NCBI GenBank assembly: GCA_937132085.1
Contig: CAKZNV010000097.1
Location: 1 to 42,775 of the forward strand
Direction: 5' to 3'
Source of the DNA: an uncultured Rubritalea sp.
Lineage (GTDB): Bacteria; Verrucomicrobiota; Verrucomicrobiia; Verrucomicrobiales; Akkermansiaceae
DNA: 42,775 bases
A program made the translations under genes and the position numbers. The notes under the pieces were generated by a model. It saw nothing but the letters and a program-made list of their open reading frames with translations. It was not told the origin of the DNA and ran no database searches. Of this stretch, positions 26,194 through 39,763 are shown in pieces. Within the stretch, counting starts at the first letter, position 1. Each line of letters begins with the position of its first letter.

Positions 26194-26931
26194 TCAATTA
26201 ATTTCTTTTCTGGCATTAGCTCGCATCGTATCTCTATAAACAAATGCAATCGGTCGTATCCACTCAAACTCATCCAGAGTATGCTCTACTGAATGATAAA
26301 GTTGGTTATAAGGTATCAGCCTAACTTTCCCTGCACTAATTTTCTGTAACCTACGTATCTGCACTGAATCATCGTCATTAAATTTGCTTACCACTAAGCA
26401 ACCACTCCAAAATTCTTCCTCTAACAAAACTGCGACGGTATCACCTGGATGAACTTCTGGCTCCATTGAGTCACCCTCTACGATCAATCCAAACACCTTC
26501 TTTTTTGCAAGCTTCGCAGTTAAAGGCAAGCTGTCTAAATAGTTTTGTGGCATTTCATCATAGGAAACTGCCGCACCAGCATGCGCCCATCCTAACACTG
26601 GCATCATTACAGGAGATTGAATTTCATTCGCTAAATTTGTTAAATAAGGATTCTCTGTATCGTTCAAAGCAGCAGCTATTTCGGCTCGCTCTCTTTCTGG
26701 AGACGCGTCACCTGTCAGCAACTCCTCCATGGTTACATGAAAATACTTAGCTAGTTTGTAAAGCTCCTCTGATTTAGGGATTCTGCCTTTTTTGTAGTTA
26801 GCTAATGCACTTGGGGAAATCCCCGTAACTTCGGATATTTTCCTTTGTGTATCTACATTCGTGTTGATTAGATCTGTAAACACTTCCGTAAAGTTTTCAT
26901 TTGTGTAACTTTCTTCTTGCATAATTTTCAT
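26194..26931 (-). CDS. CI-type repressor (HTH plus S24 peptidase domain) with altered catalytic Lys
   Basis: This 245-residue protein has an N-terminal helix-turn-helix at about 27-68 (TQRKISEVTGISPSALANYKKG). The C-terminal part is an S24/LexA-like domain: potential cleavage site A118-G119 in GWAHAGAAV and nucleophile S155 in VEGDSMEPEVHPGD. LexA-type enzymes have the catalytic Lys in T-V-K-R-L; the aligned segment here is QIRRL (191-195), with Arg193 in the Lys place. Self-cleavage may therefore be lost. It should keep early genes off in the lysogen. Its start overlaps one of the repeated TTTCATTTGTG sites, so it probably regulates itself. Confidence 0.85.
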   Translation of the reverse strand: MKIMQEESYTNENFTEVFTDLINTNVDTQRKISEVTGISPSALANYKKGRIPKSEELYKLAKYFHVTMEELLTGDASPERERAEIAAALNDTENPYLTNLANEIQSPVMMPVLGWAHAGAAVSYDEMPQNYLDSLPLTAKLAKKKVFGLIVEGDSMEPEVHPGDTVAVLLEEEFWSGCLVVSKFNDDDSVQIRRLQKISAGKVRLIPYNQLYHSVEHTLDEFEWIRPIAFVYRDTMRANARKEIN

Positions 26932-30330: not shown

Positions 30331-31743
30331 ATGAAAAAAGCATCATTAAAACAGCATCTAACTAGCCTCAAGCTTCACGAGAAATTCAACGAGCTAGAGT
30401 CAGCTATTGCTAATGGTGCTACTCAGAAAGATCAACTGCTACGCCTCCGCACTGAGCTTAAACAAGAACCTCTACACGATGAAGCAAGAACAGTCATCAA
30501 GTGCTCATGCCCTACACTAGAGCGCAAGCTCAGCAAGTGGCGCAAAGGCGGACGCATAGCAGAAGCTCTGCTACCTGACTATGGAAAGCAAGCCACTAAC
30601 AGAATTCCAGATCTTCTAATCAACGAATACCAAAGACTCTGCACTCGACCAATGGGCGGCAAGAACAAGCACGGCGCCGCTCCATGCTCGATCGCTTATA
30701 ACCAGCTCAAGAAAGACTGGAAAGATGGTAAATCAATCCCTGGTCTCGGCACCTGGACTGAATGGTGGATGAAGAATGAAGAGACGGCCAAGTTCGTCCT
30801 ACCTACAGCGGCGCCAGAGTTCCCATACACAGAGCGTGGTATGAGAAGACACCAGCCTGTCAAGGCTGTAGCAGCTCGCGGAAACGTAGGAGCTGTAGCA
30901 GCTAAAAATCACGAGGCATTCATCGAGCGAGATTATTCACTCCTCAGAAAAGGCGAACTCTACACACTAGATGATGCTCGTGTCGATGTAGTGGCTATCA
31001 ACGAACTCACAGGAAAAGTCGAAGAGGTCGGCATCTATGTATTCATGGAAGTAGCTAGCCGCGCTATCGTGGGTTTTGTCTGTAAACCTAAACACGCAAT
31101 TATCCAGGAAGATGTAGATGAGCTCATTGCTCACAGTCTCCAAACCGGAGGCTACGGAATAGGCGTCGGATACGTCACTCACATCCTCTTCGAGCGTGGA
31201 ACGATTGCCTGTTCACCAGCTGCACAGACAGTCCTCGAAGGCGGATCTAATAACGGTATCAAAGTAATCCGAACTGGACTCAATGAAGGCGTCCGTTGGG
31301 TAGGAGCTGCACCGGATAGAGCGAAAGGTAATGCGCAAGGCAAGGCCGTAGTAGAATCATTCTTCCGCCGTCTTCACCACGAGCTTTCTCTGCTTCCTGG
31401 TCAACGTGGCAACAACTGGAACAACGCACCTGAAAACCTAGGTTTCGGCCGTAACAATGACGCTTACAGACCATTTCTCGATGAAGAGAAAGAAGCAGCT
31501 CGTGAACTAAAATCATCAAGCCAGGTCGCAAATCGTCTAGCTCAGTTCAACCGCCGTGCAGCTGCTTCCGGAGCTACTGAAAAACTAGAGCTGCCATTCC
31601 TCACCTTTAACCAAATCCGTGTGGCCATCCGTAAAGCGATCGATTTCCTAAACAACGACCGAGGCCACGCATACCAAGGCCACCACCAAATAGAACAAGT
31701 AGAGACCGCTCCAGGAATCTGGCAAGACACAACTAACAACTAG
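30331..31743 (+). CDS. Mu A-like transposase, DNA-binding and catalytic chain
   Basis: This 470-residue protein has an N-terminal helical DNA-binding part (1-180). The catalytic RNase H-like domain follows: LYTLDDARVDVVA with D214/D215, then THILFERGTIACS with E288 where Mu A-type enzymes usually have Asp, and the third acid E342 in GKAVVESFFRRLHHEL. Spacings (74 and 54 residues) agree with those of Mu A. The chain ends soon after the catalytic domain (470 residues against 663 for Mu A). The missing beta-barrel and C-terminal parts appear to be encoded by the next gene. It joins phage ends to target DNA for integration and replication. Confidence 0.85.
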   Translation: MKKASLKQHLTSLKLHEKFNELESAIANGATQKDQLLRLRTELKQEPLHDEARTVIKCSCPTLERKLSKWRKGGRIAEALLPDYGKQATNRIPDLLINEYQRLCTRPMGGKNKHGAAPCSIAYNQLKKDWKDGKSIPGLGTWTEWWMKNEETAKFVLPTAAPEFPYTERGMRRHQPVKAVAARGNVGAVAAKNHEAFIERDYSLLRKGELYTLDDARVDVVAINELTGKVEEVGIYVFMEVASRAIVGFVCKPKHAIIQEDVDELIAHSLQTGGYGIGVGYVTHILFERGTIACSPAAQTVLEGGSNNGIKVIRTGLNEGVRWVGAAPDRAKGNAQGKAVVESFFRRLHHELSLLPGQRGNNWNNAPENLGFGRNNDAYRPFLDEEKEAARELKSSSQVANRLAQFNRRAAASGATEKLELPFLTFNQIRVAIRKAIDFLNNDRGHAYQGHHQIEQVETAPGIWQDTTNN

Positions 31744-31752
31744 AAATAGATC

Positions 31753-32571
31753 ATGGAATTCCAAAACATACATTTCAAACCTGCTGTAGAAGAAGATTCT
31801 TCTGCCGAGCAAACACCATGCAGCTCAACTGACCTGCATAGTCTTCCAGAGTTCAAAATCAGATACGTCACAGCTTCACCAGTAGAAGAATATCAGCTCA
31901 GAGACGGACAAGTGCAGCCAATCTCAAATGCACTGGCCTCTATGATCCTCTCTAAATCTGGCACCGCTACAGTCACTAGAAAAGGTCTCAAGATTGACAA
32001 AAAAGAACTAGGCGGCCGCCGCACATTCTGGCACGCAGATTCTCCTATCTGTAATCAGCTAACTGGTGAGCAGTCAGAATACAAAGTGGTCTACTTCTTT
32101 AATCCTCATAACACCGACCTCGTTCACCTCCTAGATGCTAAGACAGGAACCTATCTCGAATCACTCCCAGCGAAAGAACAAATCAGTCCGCTCGATGCCG
32201 AGGCAGCAGGAAAGCAGATCGCTAAGCACAACAGACAGATAGGCCGTGCAATGTCACATCTCCAGAATCTCCAAGGCGACGAAACAAGACAGGTCCTAGA
32301 AGAAGCATCCAGAAATGCTGAACTAGCATCGAAAGTGATCTCCACGCTACCAGCTAAAAAAGATGCCTCTGTAGCTCCACACAAGCCAGAGCGCACCACC
32401 GCAGACCAAGTAGATGCCATCGAGCAACTAGCCGACCAGGGCCGCCAGAAAATCAAGCAAGCCGTCACCCGCGATCGAGCACTAGAAAAAGCAGTAGAGC
32501 GCAAGATGAACACCATGCCAGCCCCAGCCAAACGCCGCCAAGAACTAATCCCAGATCCACTAGATATTTAA
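31753..32571 (+). CDS. Separate C-terminal part of the transposase (Mu_transpos_C-like)
   Basis: This 272-residue protein starts nine bases after the catalytic chain's stop. Residues about 75-140 (TVTRKGLKIDKKELGGRRTFW, then EYKVVYFFNPHNTDLVHLLDAKTGTYLESLP) follow the pattern of the Mu A C-terminal beta-barrel: G-x-I-x-x-x-x-x-Y/F-W, V-x-x-x-x-x-P-x-x, V-x-x-x-D-x-x-G-x-x-L. The rest is helical and basic (HNRQIGRAMSHLQNLQGDE, AVTRDRALEKAVERKM), comparable to Mu A domain III, which contacts Mu B and ClpX. I recall related prophages having both parts in one chain. It is in another reading frame than the upstream gene and has its own start. Confidence 0.7.
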   Translation: MEFQNIHFKPAVEEDSSAEQTPCSSTDLHSLPEFKIRYVTASPVEEYQLRDGQVQPISNALASMILSKSGTATVTRKGLKIDKKELGGRRTFWHADSPICNQLTGEQSEYKVVYFFNPHNTDLVHLLDAKTGTYLESLPAKEQISPLDAEAAGKQIAKHNRQIGRAMSHLQNLQGDETRQVLEEASRNAELASKVISTLPAKKDASVAPHKPERTTADQVDAIEQLADQGRQKIKQAVTRDRALEKAVERKMNTMPAPAKRRQELIPDPLDI

Positions 32572-32592: not shown

Positions 32593-33570
32593 ATGACTAC
32601 AAAACTACCATCAAACACCAGACCAGGAACAACCGTTCCTGAAAGCTCTGAGAAGTTCAACCCAACGCTTCATCAATGGCTCATTGAACACATCGAAACC
32701 ACCGGCTTAACTCGTAGCGACATCGGCCTAAGACTCGGCTATCGAGACGGATCTACTGTAAGCCGATATGTAAGCAAAACTCCAGCTGGAGACATCGCTA
32801 AATTTGAAGCTCGTTTGACCGACTACAAACACCGCACAGAAACGCTCAGGAACTCAACTTCAGATGGCGAAATCTGGGAAACTTCAGTGCTCAAACAGTC
32901 TCATCATTTCTGTGAAATAGTGCGAAGCTCGCTCGATGTCGGAATCCTACACGGTAATGCTGGGATAGGAAAATCCACTGCGCTCAGAGCATTCGCTCAG
33001 GAAAACCTCACCGTGTTGTATGTAGAAACGAATGCCTCTCAAGCTGGAGCTAGAGGCATGACTAATATACTTTTAAAATGCCTATCCGATAATGGTCTCG
33101 GACCTTCACAATCTCGCTGGGAATACATCATAAATGCTCTCGAAGGATCAGACCGACTTATCACTGTAGATAATGCTCAGCGCCTAAACAAAGAAGGCCG
33201 TGATTTTCTCTTTGATCTTCACGATGCTACTAGATGCCCAATAGTCCTAGCTGGTAATCCATCTATAAAAACATCAGTGGCAAAAAATGATCAACAACAC
33301 AGCCGCTGCCTGCTTCAGCACGAAGTCAGTTTGAAAGCTAAAGAGATCCCCAATCTTGCTCAGAAGCTCACTCAAAAACACTTCCCAAACTGTCCGCAAG
33401 TCTGGCCATACGCTGAACAAGTAGCAGCTCAGGAAGGTTACCTCCGAGCTCTTGAAAAAGTCCTCAAAACCGCCGTTGTATTCTCTGAGCTCGATGGCCT
33501 TTCAGATCCAGTCCAGGCATTCAAAGCTGCACACGCTAAATCCACCCGTAACTACAAACTCATAGATTAA
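32593..33570 (+). CDS. Mu B-like transposition ATPase
   Basis: This 325-residue protein has an N-terminal helix-turn-helix (about 25-62, TLHQWLIEHIETTGLTRSDIGLRLGYRDGS), as in Mu B. The AAA+ part has Walker A GNAGIGKST (121-129). The Walker B strand reads LITVDNAQRL (189-198), with Asn194 where the catalytic Glu is usual. A C-terminal part (CPQVWPYAEQVAAQEGYLRALEKVL) may bind DNA. Mu B picks target DNA, stimulates the transposase and protects the phage genome from self-insertion. It lies directly after the transposase genes, as in Mu. Confidence 0.8.
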   Translation: MTTKLPSNTRPGTTVPESSEKFNPTLHQWLIEHIETTGLTRSDIGLRLGYRDGSTVSRYVSKTPAGDIAKFEARLTDYKHRTETLRNSTSDGEIWETSVLKQSHHFCEIVRSSLDVGILHGNAGIGKSTALRAFAQENLTVLYVETNASQAGARGMTNILLKCLSDNGLGPSQSRWEYIINALEGSDRLITVDNAQRLNKEGRDFLFDLHDATRCPIVLAGNPSIKTSVAKNDQQHSRCLLQHEVSLKAKEIPNLAQKLTQKHFPNCPQVWPYAEQVAAQEGYLRALEKVLKTAVVFSELDGLSDPVQAFKAAHAKSTRNYKLID

Positions 33571-33574
33571 AATT

Positions 33575-33997
33575 ATGTCATGCTCACCGAACACCAAATC
33601 AACCAAATCATCTGGCACAACATGCGACTCCAAGTCGAACTCATCATCATCAAAGATCTCCTCCGAGAAGAAGATACCCGCCAAGCTCACAACCACCAAT
33701 CGAAAGCCGAGGGCCACGTCGAATCAATCTCCGTCATCATGTCCGATTCAAGAACCATACACACCTAACCTAGCAAGCTCATGGCGCATCAGAACTTGCC
33801 TAGAACAATGCTGGATTCCGATCGAAGCTAGAAAGCCAGAAACCAACTCTGAAGTCTTAGTGATAGAGGGAGAATATCACTACACAGCATTCTACCTAGA
33901 AGACGGAACATTCATGAGCAGTATATCTCAACAAATCACCCCACAAATAATCGAAAACGTCACTCACTGGCAACCACTCACAATACCTAAAAAATAA
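33575..33997 (+). CDS. DUF551 protein, overlapping a second frame
   Basis: This 140-residue frame has a C-terminal half (from about residue 80) that reads WIPIEARKPETNSEVLVIEG, then HYTAFYLEDGTF and VTHWQPLTIPKK, a clear DUF551 pattern found in many phages, function unknown. Its N-terminal 65 residues are Ser/Thr/Lys-rich and look like a shadow of the frame at 33580-33768. No other ATG, GTG or TTG lies between 33575 and the DUF551 part, so either the long overlapping form is made or a +1 frameshift joins the two. The AAAATTATG context at 33575 equals that of other genes here and supports this start. Its stop overlaps the Gam start (TAATG). Confidence 0.6.
   Translation: MSCSPNTKSTKSSGTTCDSKSNSSSSKISSEKKIPAKLTTTNRKPRATSNQSPSSCPIQEPYTPNLASSWRIRTCLEQCWIPIEARKPETNSEVLVIEGEYHYTAFYLEDGTFMSSISQQITPQIIENVTHWQPLTIPKK
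33580..33768 (+). CDS. Small protein overlapping the DUF551 frame (62 aa)
   Basis: The 62 codons start five bases after the other ATG (ATGTCATG). The protein (MLTEHQINQIIWHNMRLQVELIIIKDLLREEDTR ... MSDSRTIHT) looks more natural than the overlapping Ser-rich frame: a long amphipathic helix with normal composition. It could be a gene of its own or the 5' part of a frameshifted DUF551 fusion. No family recognised. Confidence 0.5.
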   Translation: MLTEHQINQIIWHNMRLQVELIIIKDLLREEDTRQAHNHQSKAEGHVESISVIMSDSRTIHT

Positions 33998-34512
33998 TGA
34001 GCACAATAAGAACACAAAAACAACTCGAAGAGTTAGCTAACGACTGGGCTAACGAGACCATCAAGATCAACGAAATTTCAGCGGATCAAGCCACTGAAAC
34101 CAATGATCTGAAAAAGCGATATAAAGCCAAATTAGACGACCTTAAAAAAGAGGTTTCTAATATGAAAAAACGTATCGGAAATTGGCTAACTAAGAACTCC
34201 ATAAAGGTCTACGGCCAAGACGGAGTAGGAACGATAAAAACGGAACAAGTTGAGATTCAGCTCAGTAATAATCCTCCTGCTATTAAGCAACTCGACACGT
34301 CGATTTCAGAGCAAGAACTGATCGAGCAAATAAAAGAAAAAGGCTATCGCTCAGTAATCGTCACCAAAGAAATTATAAGCAAGGAATTACTAGAAAAACT
34401 ACCTGAAGAAACTTTGGAATTATTAGGTTTCTACAAAGCCAGAAGTCAGACGGTCAGATTGACCCCATTAGCTGAACCAAAAGCTAAAGCAAACTCCAAA
34501 ATATCTAACTAA
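33997..34512 (+). CDS. Mu Gam-like host-nuclease inhibitor
   Basis: This 171-residue protein has the Mu Gam pattern: a long coiled coil at the start (LEELANDWANETIKINEISADQATETNDLKKRYKAKLDDLKKEVSNMKKRI) and then the beta unit KVYGQDGVGTIKTEQVEIQLSNNPPAI and a C-terminal ELLGFYKARSQTVRLTPL. Mu Gam, related to Ku, binds double-stranded ends and protects phage DNA from exonucleases. Here it overlaps the DUF551 stop by one base. It is in the expected place after the B gene. Confidence 0.85.
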   Translation: MSTIRTQKQLEELANDWANETIKINEISADQATETNDLKKRYKAKLDDLKKEVSNMKKRIGNWLTKNSIKVYGQDGVGTIKTEQVEIQLSNNPPAIKQLDTSISEQELIEQIKEKGYRSVIVTKEIISKELLEKLPEETLELLGFYKARSQTVRLTPLAEPKAKANSKISN

Positions 34513-36191: not shown

Positions 36192-36429
36192 TATCAACAC
36201 CGAGATGGTAGAAGCCCTCCCCGTCCAGCGAGAAATCGACAAAGCCGAAGCCAAGTCCCTCATCGAAGACCACCTCAAACTAACCGGAAGCCCAAGAGCC
36301 GAAAAACTCCTCAGCAACTGGGAAAAGACCTGTAAGAAGCTGATCCGAGTCATTCCTAAGACCAAGGCAGCCCTAGAAGCAGCCGAGGAACAACACGAAG
36401 CTGCAAGCACACCAAAGGCGAAAGCTTAA
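36192..36429 (+). pseudogene. gltB: gltB 3' end, copy 3
   Basis: Aligns gap-free to 58-295, from TATCAACACCGAG to TAA. The protein differs from copy 1 at only two positions (D to E in QRDID, A to S in AKALIED), while DNA changes are largely synonymous. A strong terminator follows (36456-36494), the same as behind copy 4, and probably the native gltB terminator. It begins right after a GGGGTCAG-type repeat. Confidence 0.85.
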
Positions 36430-36549: not shown

Positions 36550-36600
36550 TTCTAAATTATAGGACTGCCCCTTTTACTCCCCCCCCCTTTTGCTTTTCCC
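36550..36600 (-). repeat. GGGGTCAG-family repeat (variant), C-rich
   Basis: On the minus strand this holds AAAAGCAAAAGGGGG and then the GGGGCAGTCCTATAATTTAG tail. It overlaps the last codons of the gene at 36574. Confidence 0.7.
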
Positions 36601-37626
36601 TTTTTCAGATATTTCCCCAACAATAATTCGATCTCCTAAGCCATCTGCACTTCCTGTAATTACTATATCCTCCGTGTGGAAACAAATATCTTCATTGATT
36701 GTAAAACTATACGATTCAATATCATGATTGTATAAACCATCATCACTCTTGGGATAACTCTTATATGTCTCTAGATTATACTTTGTTTGCATAGTTCTAA
36801 CAAAAGCTTTCTCCGCATCTGCTATTTTATCTGCATACGGAATTTTGTTCTGATTATCCAGTCCCATTAAAGCATTATACACCTCATCCGGATTTAAGTT
36901 GGTGTTAATTTGCGTTTCCTCAAGTTTAAATAAGAAAAGGGTAATTTCATCTGAAACTCTTGCTCCATCACTTTGAGGGTATTCTCGACTTAAAATTTGC
37001 TGCCTCTTCTCATGACCTTTCTTTAGAAGCCTTTGATAGCTATTTGCGTATTTAGAAATCCCAATATATAAGAGTTTAAAATCCCAAAACTTTGTTAAGT
37101 CAAAATCAATTTGTGTTTCCGAGTAAACTTCTACTTTTTCTTGTGAAAATTGCCACAGAAATGAATCCGGCGTATTCCAGTATACCAAAGTCCGTTCACC
37201 TTCACTTTTGATACCCCAGATTCTAATCAATTTCACTCCGACCTCAAACTCATATTTATTGAATAAATCATCATTGAACATGTTAACACAGCGTATCTCT
37301 AATTCTGGACTCTTTTCCGCGCCACACTTTAGTTGAAATCTTAAAGCACATTTTGAAAAATCAACTGGTCCGTCTATATGCTCCTTATTTGGGGCTGTTC
37401 TAGACACAGAGCAACCTTCTGATACAGCAATAATATCATAGCCTTCAGAATGATATTGAATAAGAAAAATATCCCAGAAAAACAACTCCTGCCTCTGAGC
37501 AATAAAATAAATATTACTTGTCGAGGCTACTTCATTAAACTCTCTATCATTGACCAACATTTCTGATTCAAAAGTTGAAAATGGCTGAGCGACTAATCTT
37601 AAACCGAATTCGTAATAGCTGAGCAT
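36574..37626 (-). CDS. Hypothetical island protein (350 aa)
   Basis: This 350-residue protein is AT-rich in its DNA. Its only recognisable element is FWDFKLLYIGISKYANSYQRLLKKGHEKRQQILSRE (about 180-215), reminiscent of a YIG-type motif followed by a basic helix that I recall in uncharacterised island proteins (LLYIGK-S-x(n)-RL-x-x-G-H-x-K-R). The remaining parts are beta-rich. Its last codons (GKSKRGGE) derive from a GGGGTCAG repeat, so the original C-terminus may have been replaced. It is the only gene between gltB copies 3 and 4, which suggests cassette-like arrival. A defence role is possible but unproven. Confidence 0.6.
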   Translation of the reverse strand: MLSYYEFGLRLVAQPFSTFESEMLVNDREFNEVASTSNIYFIAQRQELFFWDIFLIQYHSEGYDIIAVSEGCSVSRTAPNKEHIDGPVDFSKCALRFQLKCGAEKSPELEIRCVNMFNDDLFNKYEFEVGVKLIRIWGIKSEGERTLVYWNTPDSFLWQFSQEKVEVYSETQIDFDLTKFWDFKLLYIGISKYANSYQRLLKKGHEKRQQILSREYPQSDGARVSDEITLFLFKLEETQINTNLNPDEVYNALMGLDNQNKIPYADKIADAEKAFVRTMQTKYNLETYKSYPKSDDGLYNHDIESYSFTINEDICFHTEDIVITGSADGLGDRIIVGEISEKGKSKRGGE

Positions 37627-37707
37627 TGCTGATATATTTAAAAATTATACAACTCTTGGCAATATTAAAGCATGTTAGAAAAGCAAAGTGCCCGTTATAT
37701 GTGAACG

Positions 37708-37877
37708 CCTCATCGAAGATCACCTCAAACTCACCGCAGCCAAGAGCCGAAAAGCTCCTCAGCAACTGGGAAAAGACCTGTAAGAAGCTGATCAGAGTGA
37801 TTCCTAAGACACAGGCTGCCCTAGAAGCCGCCGAGGATCAGCACGAAGCGGCAAGTATTCCAAAGACGAATGCCTAA
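37708..37877 (+). pseudogene. gltB: gltB 3' end, copy 4 (frameshifted)
   Basis: Aligns to 124-295, with a 2-bp deletion near 37734 (GGAAGCCCAAGAGCC against GCAGCCAAGAGCC) that destroys the frame at its start. The last 45 or so residues are still readable (RAEKLLSNWEKTCKKLIRVIPKT), with a few changes near the end. It is more decayed than the others and so is perhaps the oldest. The native-type terminator follows. Confidence 0.8.
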
Positions 37878-37945: not shown

Positions 37946-39763
37946 CTAGATTTCATAATAATCACTCAATATAGGTTCTAAGTAATCTTGATCAAACGCT
38001 CTGTGTTTAAAAGCTGAAATTTTCTCTTTATTCGTAGCTAAAGCAAATTTATCGATTGCTGTTAAAACAACAACCTTCGACCTTTCGTAACAGTTTTTTA
38101 GATAATCAGCATTTTCGATTTTTTTAGCTATATCTTGCTTTCGTAGGGAAAAAGGATTTTTCCTTTGAGGAGTATTAATATCGATTTTTCCCAATACTGG
38201 CTCAGTAACTCCATCTTTAGTAATTTTAGATTCACTCATTATAAAACATCCCATGACACTTAGGATCGGCCAACCTGATTTAGAAATTAAACTTTTCTCT
38301 AATGCTGAATATTCGTTTGTTCTCAAATCAGAATTCTTTAATGACCATGTTCTTTGGAATAAAGTAACACAAAATGCATAAAGATCAAAATCGGCAGCAT
38401 CTGAAAACAAACTGTTATATTTATGCACATTATTAAACACAGTTCCAATGTCGTTTAACGAAATTATCGACTCACGATTGAGCATAGTATTCATTATCTG
38501 TGCCATTTTCATTAGACCAATGACCCTATTTCCTGTGTAACCTTGTCTTTTATAAAAATTTTCTCTTCTTTCATAAAAGATGTCAAATTTAAATAAGTGC
38601 TGTTCAATATTTCTTTGAATTCGATCATTTGCTTTTAAACTGGCAGCCTTTACTGGATTTTGAGAATTCGTTGCACTTATTATATCAGTTTGAATATCTA
38701 TATCTTGAGTATCGACAATCTTAACAAAGACCTTAAGATGATCTGGAAGACGACCCTCATCACTATATGCATCATATAAACAGTGAATTGTTTGACAGCC
38801 GTTCACTATTTGGGGGTTTTGAACCGAGTATTGATTACCACCAAGTGGAGTAATACTCTCACCAATAATTGTAAGCCCGTTATTTAAAGCCCAGAATATT
38901 TCTGACTTATTCTCATCTTTAGCAGACTCAATAATTGATGAATTAATAGTGGTATCCTCTCCTAGAAAATATCTAACATTACCTTCTGTTAGATGAGTCT
39001 TAAACTCTCCATTTTCTAGACTCAGGCATTTAACTAAGTCATTCCCTCGGACAAAACCAGAATAACCACTAGTTTCAATATCACGTTCTTTTATTTCTAA
39101 AGGCTGTGAAACGAAATTCACCTCGACTGTTTCATCCTCTCTATCAGTCAACGATAATAAATCTTGAGCTCCCAAAAAATGAAACGTGAAGGGAACACCT
39201 AGCTCATTATTTTGCAGGTCATCAGCTATATGTCTTATTTTATCTGATACTGATACTCCTGAAGGAGCAACTGTAACATAAAGGACTTCACAACTAAATT
39301 TAGCTCTCTCCAGTGCGCTTTTTCTATAAATCTTTCTGATTAACCCAGCTTTCTCTTGGAATTCTTTATTTGCACCTATCTTGGCTAAATCTTTTAATTC
39401 TAACTCTAAATCGAAAATTTCCTTGATACCCTCGGCTGTTTTTCTGAAACCATCAGTCGAAAATGAGCCTTCTTTCTTGGCTTGTATAAACTTCACCTTT
39501 ACATGGCTTTCTTTATTTATGGGATGATCTTCGTCGTTTACAATGACACCATTAGAAAATATATAACAATGATCAATGCCCTCGTCGCCACCATTACCCA
39601 TAATACCAGAAATCAAATCATCTAAATCAATTCCGTTTAAATGCTTTAAGTTTGCAAATGCAGCCACAGCAATTTCAAACTTATTTTTATCAATCCCATT
39701 TAATTCAGGATTATCTCTAAACAATTTACTTATCTGATCATCAACTAATACTCGCAAACTCAT
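37946..39763 (-). CDS. AIPR-family (abortive infection phage resistance) protein
   Basis: This 605-residue protein has a centre (PQIVNGCQTIHCLYDAY at about 317-333) that is the hallmark of AIPR proteins, together with EIFWALNNGLTIIGES, KVFVKIVDTQDIDIQTDIISATNSQNPV and IFYERRENFYKRQG. The N-terminal region has a nuclease-like pattern: GGDEGIDHCYIF (58-69) and FIQAKKEG (92-99), compatible with a D-QxK restriction-endonuclease core. Family members act in phage defence (abortive infection or modification-dependent systems). It sits alone after gltB copy 4 with an AT-rich base composition, as expected for an acquired defence gene. Confidence 0.85.
   Translation of the reverse strand: MSLRVLVDDQISKLFRDNPELNGIDKNKFEIAVAAFANLKHLNGIDLDDLISGIMGNGGDEGIDHCYIFSNGVIVNDEDHPINKESHVKVKFIQAKKEGSFSTDGFRKTAEGIKEIFDLELELKDLAKIGANKEFQEKAGLIRKIYRKSALERAKFSCEVLYVTVAPSGVSVSDKIRHIADDLQNNELGVPFTFHFLGAQDLLSLTDREDETVEVNFVSQPLEIKERDIETSGYSGFVRGNDLVKCLSLENGEFKTHLTEGNVRYFLGEDTTINSSIIESAKDENKSEIFWALNNGLTIIGESITPLGGNQYSVQNPQIVNGCQTIHCLYDAYSDEGRLPDHLKVFVKIVDTQDIDIQTDIISATNSQNPVKAASLKANDRIQRNIEQHLFKFDIFYERRENFYKRQGYTGNRVIGLMKMAQIMNTMLNRESIISLNDIGTVFNNVHKYNSLFSDAADFDLYAFCVTLFQRTWSLKNSDLRTNEYSALEKSLISKSGWPILSVMGCFIMSESKITKDGVTEPVLGKIDINTPQRKNPFSLRKQDIAKKIENADYLKNCYERSKVVVLTAIDKFALATNKEKISAFKHRAFDQDYLEPILSDYYEI

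Follow-up and report, generated by a model that had tools for sequence, protein, structure and literature searches.

A Mu-like transposase divided into two chains in a family of Verrucomicrobiota phages

In a family of Mu-like phages of the Verrucomicrobiota, the transposase is naturally split into two chains, and this split is real and conserved. Most likely, the two chains constitute an obligate two-chain transposase that arose by one old gene fission. The feature was detected in a stretch of 42,775 nucleotides from an uncultured Rubritalea sp., which is referred to in its entirety as the window. An earlier note, made from its letters alone, had proposed a natural two-chain Mu transposase, a proposal that is well supported by the same split in 16 of 16 loci, a single group in the tree, purifying selection and MuA-like folds. 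On the basis of sequence comparison and structural prediction, we regard the complete explanation, i.e. a natural transposase of chains A and B in which the pair would replace one MuA subunit and which would trace back to a single fission, as quite probable.

The prophage in the window is of the transposable type and comprises a repressor, short early genes, the transposase, a MuB-like ATPase and Gam, and its minus strand carries genes for an endolysin, a head protease, a head protein, the terminase and the portal. The features relevant to the split are the following:

26194 to 26931, minus strand: CI-like repressor with HTH and S24 peptidase domain (profile matches), adjoining the early region
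30331 to 31743, plus strand: chain A (ORF1), 470 aa, stop codon TAG, matching the transposase family phrog_310 (1.3e-15)
31741 to 31755, plus strand: junction TAG AAA TAG ATC ATG in the frame of chain A, with two in-frame TAG codons followed by the start of chain B
31753 to 32571, plus strand: chain B (ORF2), 272 aa, with a match to Mu-transpos_C below the cut-off (E 0.17)
31762 to 31776, plus strand: N-terminal peptide of chain B in its window form, QNIHF, a motif present in 12 of 16 loci
31858 to 31914, plus strand: ORF2 residues 36-54 (IRYVTASPVEEYQLRDGQV), aligned with MuA from about 463 onward and predicted to pack on chain A
31921 to 32175, plus strand: ORF2 residues 57-141, the barrel, aligned with MuA 481-560
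32593 to 33570, plus strand: MuB-like AAA ATPase (AAA_22, 2.8e-12; phrog_296 DNA transposition protein, 1.8e-29)
33997 to 34512, plus strand: Mu Gam-like protein (PF07352, 2e-10; phrog_491, 2.5e-8)

Chain A comprises a region like the end-binding part of MuA and the greater part of the RNase-H catalytic domain, and its acidic residues D214, D215, E288 and E342 are invariant in 18 aligned rows. Chain B consists, in this order, of a short N-terminal peptide, a linker, a segment corresponding to the end of domain II-alpha, a II-beta-like barrel and a helical tail. That the two ORFs amount to 470 and 272 residues, 742 in total, and are separated by nine bases from stop to ATG was verified from the coordinates.

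Elsewhere in the window, two ORFs at 36205-36429 and 37626-37877 have a nearly identical C-terminal part (PRAEKLLSNWEKTCKKLIRVIPKT...), and these duplicated parts flank a minus-strand gene at 36574-37626, an arrangement reminiscent of cassette insertion accompanied by a duplication. Past the early genes, the minus strand encodes at 37946-39763 a 605-aa protein, which presumably resembles AIPR-type abortive-infection proteins.

The same split was sought in relatives, as had been proposed beforehand, and 15 other loci turned out to be divided alike, which is more than chance would give; counting the window, all 16 loci in which the junction can be seen are divided at this one position. In the order search, which covered 386 genomes, eight loci in six genomes matched at 44-48% identity, and 8/8 are split at this place; the 18 distant loci newly fetched in it comprise 16 one-chain genes (627-787 aa) and two truncated at the end of a contig. 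A profile of nine split ORF1s (the window and these eight) retrieved four loci from viral contigs and 15 from genome contigs, among the latter the eight loci of the order search again and three distant loci (L081-L083, 24-25% identity) that, to judge from the length of their contigs, were already known. Eight loci were new from this profile search; the junction is visible in seven of them, each of which is split, and one (L068) stops inside ORF1. In the phylum search, 27 of 387 genomes, including that of the window, had a match; the 29 further matches, at 25-35% identity, comprise 25 single uninterrupted ORFs of 669-833 aa, three contig-cut loci and one locus (L027, E 8.5e-4) that was set aside by eye, its frame not being transposase-like. 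Taken together, the transposase is one-chain in 41 of 41 distant relatives whose gene is complete, with lengths of 627-833 aa. Contig-cut loci (L009, L015, L019, L046, L050 and L068) were not counted, and two weak order-search matches in a single genome (G442), to which no locus was assigned, stand outside the counts. With the single window protein as query, no relative was found in the viral contigs and genome contigs; tblastn of both chains against 50,697 phage records yielded no match, the 58 near genomes searched contained nothing beyond the window's own copy, and the PF02914 search gave no match, likewise none in any control genome.

The split loci carry the labels Akkermansiaceae, Akkermansia, Opitutaceae, Verrucomicrobiia, Spartobacteria and Kiritimatiellae, and include one isolate genome, that of Chthoniobacter flavus Ellin428 (L078), most relatives being metagenomic. 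ORF1 and ORF2 overlap by 4 nt (ATGA) in five of the 16 loci and are otherwise separated by gaps of 2 to 37 nt, as measured with manually chosen ORF2 start codons (in L063 and L075, earlier in-frame ATGs occur 31 nt before the ORF1 stop). Since the genes are so close, from overlap to 37 nt, in 16/16 loci, the arrangement suggests coupled, near-equal synthesis of the chains, and the idea that complex assembly is controlled by the ratio of two proteins finds no support. Downstream of ORF2, an ORF with a P-loop, recognised in the relatives by motif only, is present in 15 of 16 loci, the contig ending in the case of L067; in L064 it lies about 0.4 kb beyond ORF2, and in L063 and L075 it was recognised by eye, the regular expression being negative.

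Several peculiarities of individual members were observed as well. Two distinct split transposase lineages occur together in each of two genomes (L058 and L061 in G724; L060 and L062 in G632), suggesting co-resident prophages. The C-terminus of chain A is extended by roughly 100 or more residues in L065, L066, L078 and L079; the extension of L066 has a weak likeness to Mu GemA (PF06252, E 0.0019, below cut-off), and a family search with the other three gave no match. In L080, ORF1 is interrupted close to its N-terminus.

With respect to the history of the split, a tree with 15 split and 36 one-chain rows, rooted at the midpoint only, sets the split rows apart by a branch supported at 100/99; it omits L060, a near copy of L059, and the one-chain loci L010, L023, L029, L048 and L055. 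The branch of the nearest one-chain row, L028, is very long (2.53). In three diverged pairs from two lineages, which do not include the window, dN/dS (NG86) amounts to 0.11-0.16 for ORF1 and 0.15-0.35 for ORF2; the pair L059/L060 gives 0.61 for ORF2 at a dS of 0.035, with ORF1 lacking any synonymous change. The substitution ratios of the diverged pairs indicate purifying selection on chain A as well as on chain B in both tested lineages. Moreover, across the 16 loci the identity of chain A rises and falls with that of chain B (r 0.95, or 0.81 once three near copies are left out), and in either case 0 of 2000 permutations reached so high a value. The single tree group, the low dN/dS values and the covarying chain identities fit one old fission, after which both halves would have been maintained working together.

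Profile and fold searches align both parts of the transposase with MuA (4fcy, 1bco). Residues 57-141 of ORF2 superpose on the MuA barrel, 481-560 (1bco; Z 9.1, rmsd 1.9, 74 residues), and residues 57-184 on 481-605 of 4fcy_B (Z 8.9, rmsd 3.9, 112 residues), a Z of about 9 being slightly above the 7-8 that is typical of the tool without a clear match; the first nine rows of structural matches are Mu or Tn7-type transposases. Foldseek returned no match for ORF2 alone at E <= 0.001 (best 2.6e-3), with Mu/Tn7-type families at E 0.003-0.3, and against Pfam ORF2 reached 12.4 bits for Mu-transpos_C (PF09299), which is below the cut-off of 21.7, and matched no nuclease family up to E 1. A phmmer search of the PDB gave no match for ORF1; the matches listed for ORF2, nearly all of them staphylococcal nuclease, had E >= 0.08 and were taken as chance. 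The tail of chain B had been described as basic and helical: it is helical, and the term basic is inexact, as residues 201-272 contain 15 K+R versus 12 D+E. At its other end, chain B begins in 12 of 16 loci with a short peptide, typically RNIHF, that is followed by a variable linker; the pattern used, [RQT][NS][IA][HTY][FLVP], was composed after the rows had been seen, and the peptide is absent in L058-L060 and unrecognised in L064. The conservation of this peptide just after the start supports the start codon of chain B, so that the second chain keeps the start of its own that was first ascribed to it. The peptide could be a docking peptide.

The position of the break can be described relative to MuA, since the joined chains are colinear from end to end with 11 one-chain relatives and a profile of 54 rows matches MuA (4fcy) at 4.7e-15; this match falls into two blocks and pairs D269 with the DD motif. 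According to the available text of PMC3562280, the MuA chain in 4fcy has 529 residues spanning 77-605, so that MuA numbering equals index + 76 and index 193 is D269. The ORF2 motif SPVEEY (residue 42 on) is aligned to MuA 463, in a block that is weak alone (13.6 bits, i-E 0.22); by structure, ORF2 57 corresponds to MuA 481, in agreement with the profile placement within about three residues. Domain II-alpha of MuA ends near 490. Hence, domain II-alpha itself appears to be interrupted, at MuA ~463 and ahead of its last helix, and the former description of the first gene as ending just after the DDE domain is inexact, as this helix seemingly follows the break. The MuA region around the break can tolerate change, because pentapeptide insertions at the loop at aa 460 retain 14-74% activity and insertions at aa 474-479 increase it, up to 197% (available text of PMC3362531). 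As for the active site, the likely position of the second catalytic acid is occupied by Glu (E288, window 31192-31194, in ERGT; in others e.g. EHGTA) in 18/18 rows, one-chain relatives included, its equivalence to MuA D336 being deduced from its place at the strand end. Because Glu stands at the likely second-Asp position in all 18 rows, the catalytic triad may read D-E-E.

With the two chains artificially joined into the read-through fusion, AlphaFold2 gave a model with pLDDT 82.7 and pTM 0.68. Its best match in the PDB is MuA 4fcy (2e-15), and MuA 258-560 aligns with model residues 200-615 (Z 19.2, rmsd 3.8, 268 residues). The catalytic-core-only integrase 4pa1 (59-209) aligns with model residues 205-528 (Z 14.5, rmsd 2.9, 150 residues) and thereby runs past the junction, and further integrase rows, judged from the end points of their ranges only, end near 522-529; model residues 510-528 are ORF2 residues 36-54. 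In the fusion model, the blocks over ORF2 residues 37-66 have pLDDT 97, versus 56-87 when ORF2 is folded alone (from 45 rows: ORF2 and the one-chain proteins of the same loci). In the latter prediction the barrel is kept (block pLDDT 87-95), the blocks over residues 31-60 go down to pLDDT 56-80, the strand 36-40 is lost and the helix 43-49 is kept even without chain A. Residues 37-63 are the best conserved part of ORF2. Since this segment is confident in the fusion, weaker alone and best conserved, and since the core integrase alignment crosses the junction, the models suggest that chain B docks on chain A via ORF2 ~36-66 and thus completes the catalytic domain.

Because the break is apparently inside the catalytic fold, both chains must probably assemble for DNA cutting and joining. 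In the mechanism proposed here, an ancestral one-chain gene would have undergone fission once, at a loop. Chain A would provide phage-end binding and the catalytic acidic residues, and chain B the final strand and the final helix of the catalytic domain, along with the barrel, the C-terminal helices and the target-DNA contacts. Docking of chain B through ORF2 ~36-66 would finish the catalytic fold, and the pair would substitute for one MuA subunit, with the MuB-like ATPase encoded downstream as its partner. In phage Mu, as far as the available text of PMC5357137 describes it, assembly requires III-alpha of the non-catalytic subunits, and target binding and bending require domain III of the catalytic subunits. 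The suggestion of the earlier note that chain B recruits MuB or an unfoldase is plausible by analogy, because III-beta of MuA contacts both MuB and ClpX (available text of PMC3562280). A farther-reaching proposal, to which we lend only tentative credence, holds that the fold becomes complete only on docking of chain B, which would also bring the barrel and the MuB and unfoldase contacts, and that this removable chain would control activation, target capture and transpososome disassembly.

Among the alternatives, the one that survives best is a neutral split, according to which the separate chains assemble tightly and act as one MuA chain, devoid of new regulation. It is a mild form of the preferred explanation and compatible with it, and its chance of being correct is not far below even. 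The tight gene spacing and the covarying chain divergences are in line with a neutral split, as is the activity of 14-74% that MuA retains upon insertions at the aa 460 loop (available text of PMC3362531), while two features hint at an added function, namely the N-terminal peptide on chain B and the C-terminal extension that four members have on chain A; the evidence opposing neutrality is not strong. On the other hand, chain A alone might be the active recombinase, with chain B as an optional accessory that is present in a different ratio and regulates assembly or brings MuB. Although Mu catalytic and non-catalytic subunits do differ in their need for domain III (available text of PMC5357137), chain B seemingly holds the strand and the helix that end the catalytic fold and the genes overlap or lie at most 37 nt apart in 16/16 loci, and we consider an autonomous chain A unlikely.

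A third alternative concerns the stop codon itself. The second gene had been placed in another frame; in fact, both window ORFs share one frame, as their starts are 31753-30331 = 1422 = 3 x 474 nucleotides, i.e. 474 codons, apart and the junction in full reads AAC TAG AAA TAG ATC ATG GAA in a single frame with two in-frame TAGs. The shared frame makes read-through, suppression or recoding of TAG as an amino acid, which would yield a one-chain product and render the split merely apparent, a serious rival, and the conservation and frames of the arrangement were examined for this reason. Relative to ORF1, ORF2 is in frame 0 in six of the 16 loci, in +1 in three and in +2 in seven, and ORF1 is terminated by TAG in three loci, by TAA in five and by TGA in eight. 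Thus, the six same-frame loci are in keeping with read-through, but ten of 16 are in other frames and TAA and TGA occur among the stops; moreover, TAG closes 8 of the 34 main ORFs picked in the window, ORF1 included, and the N-terminal peptide of chain B is conserved just past its own start in 12/16 loci. A conserved frame relation between ORF1 and ORF2, as in the programmed frameshift or read-through of IS1/IS3, was not found in the 16 loci, which fall into three frames. Read-through is therefore a very improbable explanation, and still less credence is due to an error of sequencing or assembly or to decay of the transposase, since the draft state of the window genome (254 contigs), the mostly metagenomic origin of the relatives and the interrupted ORF1 of L080 are outweighed by the identical break in 16/16 loci, including the Chthoniobacter flavus Ellin428 isolate, and by dN/dS well below 1 for both chains in diverged pairs. 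In summary, with 16/16 split loci, three stops, three frames, varied spacing and an isolate among them, neither sequencing error nor read-through can be the general explanation, and the error that had been named at the outset as the refuting outcome is untenable for the family.

No prior report of a split Mu transposase was present among the literature matches listed, which consisted of titles and the beginnings of abstracts and included few subscription journals. The supply of domains by individual subunits of the Mu transpososome has reportedly been studied with truncated and mixed MuA variants. In the family described here, the barrel and C-terminal domains are naturally apart from the catalytic chain, and each part can hence be freely added, omitted or replaced. 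Their separation is old enough to have reached hosts labelled as several different classes, and it shows a point of natural division in a transposase whose relatives serve as genome tools.

Among known systems, the TnpA of the Leptospira transposable prophages (TnpA/TnpB) is likewise MuA-like, with end-binding, DDE, small barrel and helix regions, and is accompanied by an ATPase; unlike the present pair, TnpA is described as a single protein, the word 'split' being absent from the main text as available (PMC8705779). The one-chain Mu-like transposases of the same phylum (L002-L056) are colinear with the joined chains at 18-25% identity and share the invariant D, D, E and E in the compared rows, yet they are encoded by a single ORF of 627-833 aa. 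TnsB of Tn7 works with an AAA ATPase partner and is itself one chain, and the second subunit of Tn7, TnsA, is an unrelated nuclease. TnsB of Tn7 and CAST systems has the same core and barrel fold (7pik, 8aa5, 8ea3); in contrast to the Tn7-type heteromer, ORF2 matches the MuA/TnsB barrel and the following helix and not a TnsA-type nuclease. MuA (PDB 4FCY, 1BCM/1BCO) shares the domain order, its core and barrel superpose with rmsd 3.8 over 268 residues, and the MuB-like ATPase and Gam genes nearby in the window correspond to those of phage Mu. However, MuA is one chain, whereas the window encodes two, apparently broken before the last II-alpha helix, and the second acid is apparently Glu (E288) in the window and Asp in MuA. 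Hence, the feature is of the MuA kind by its fold, domain order and partner gene, and its two-chain make-up appears to be new.
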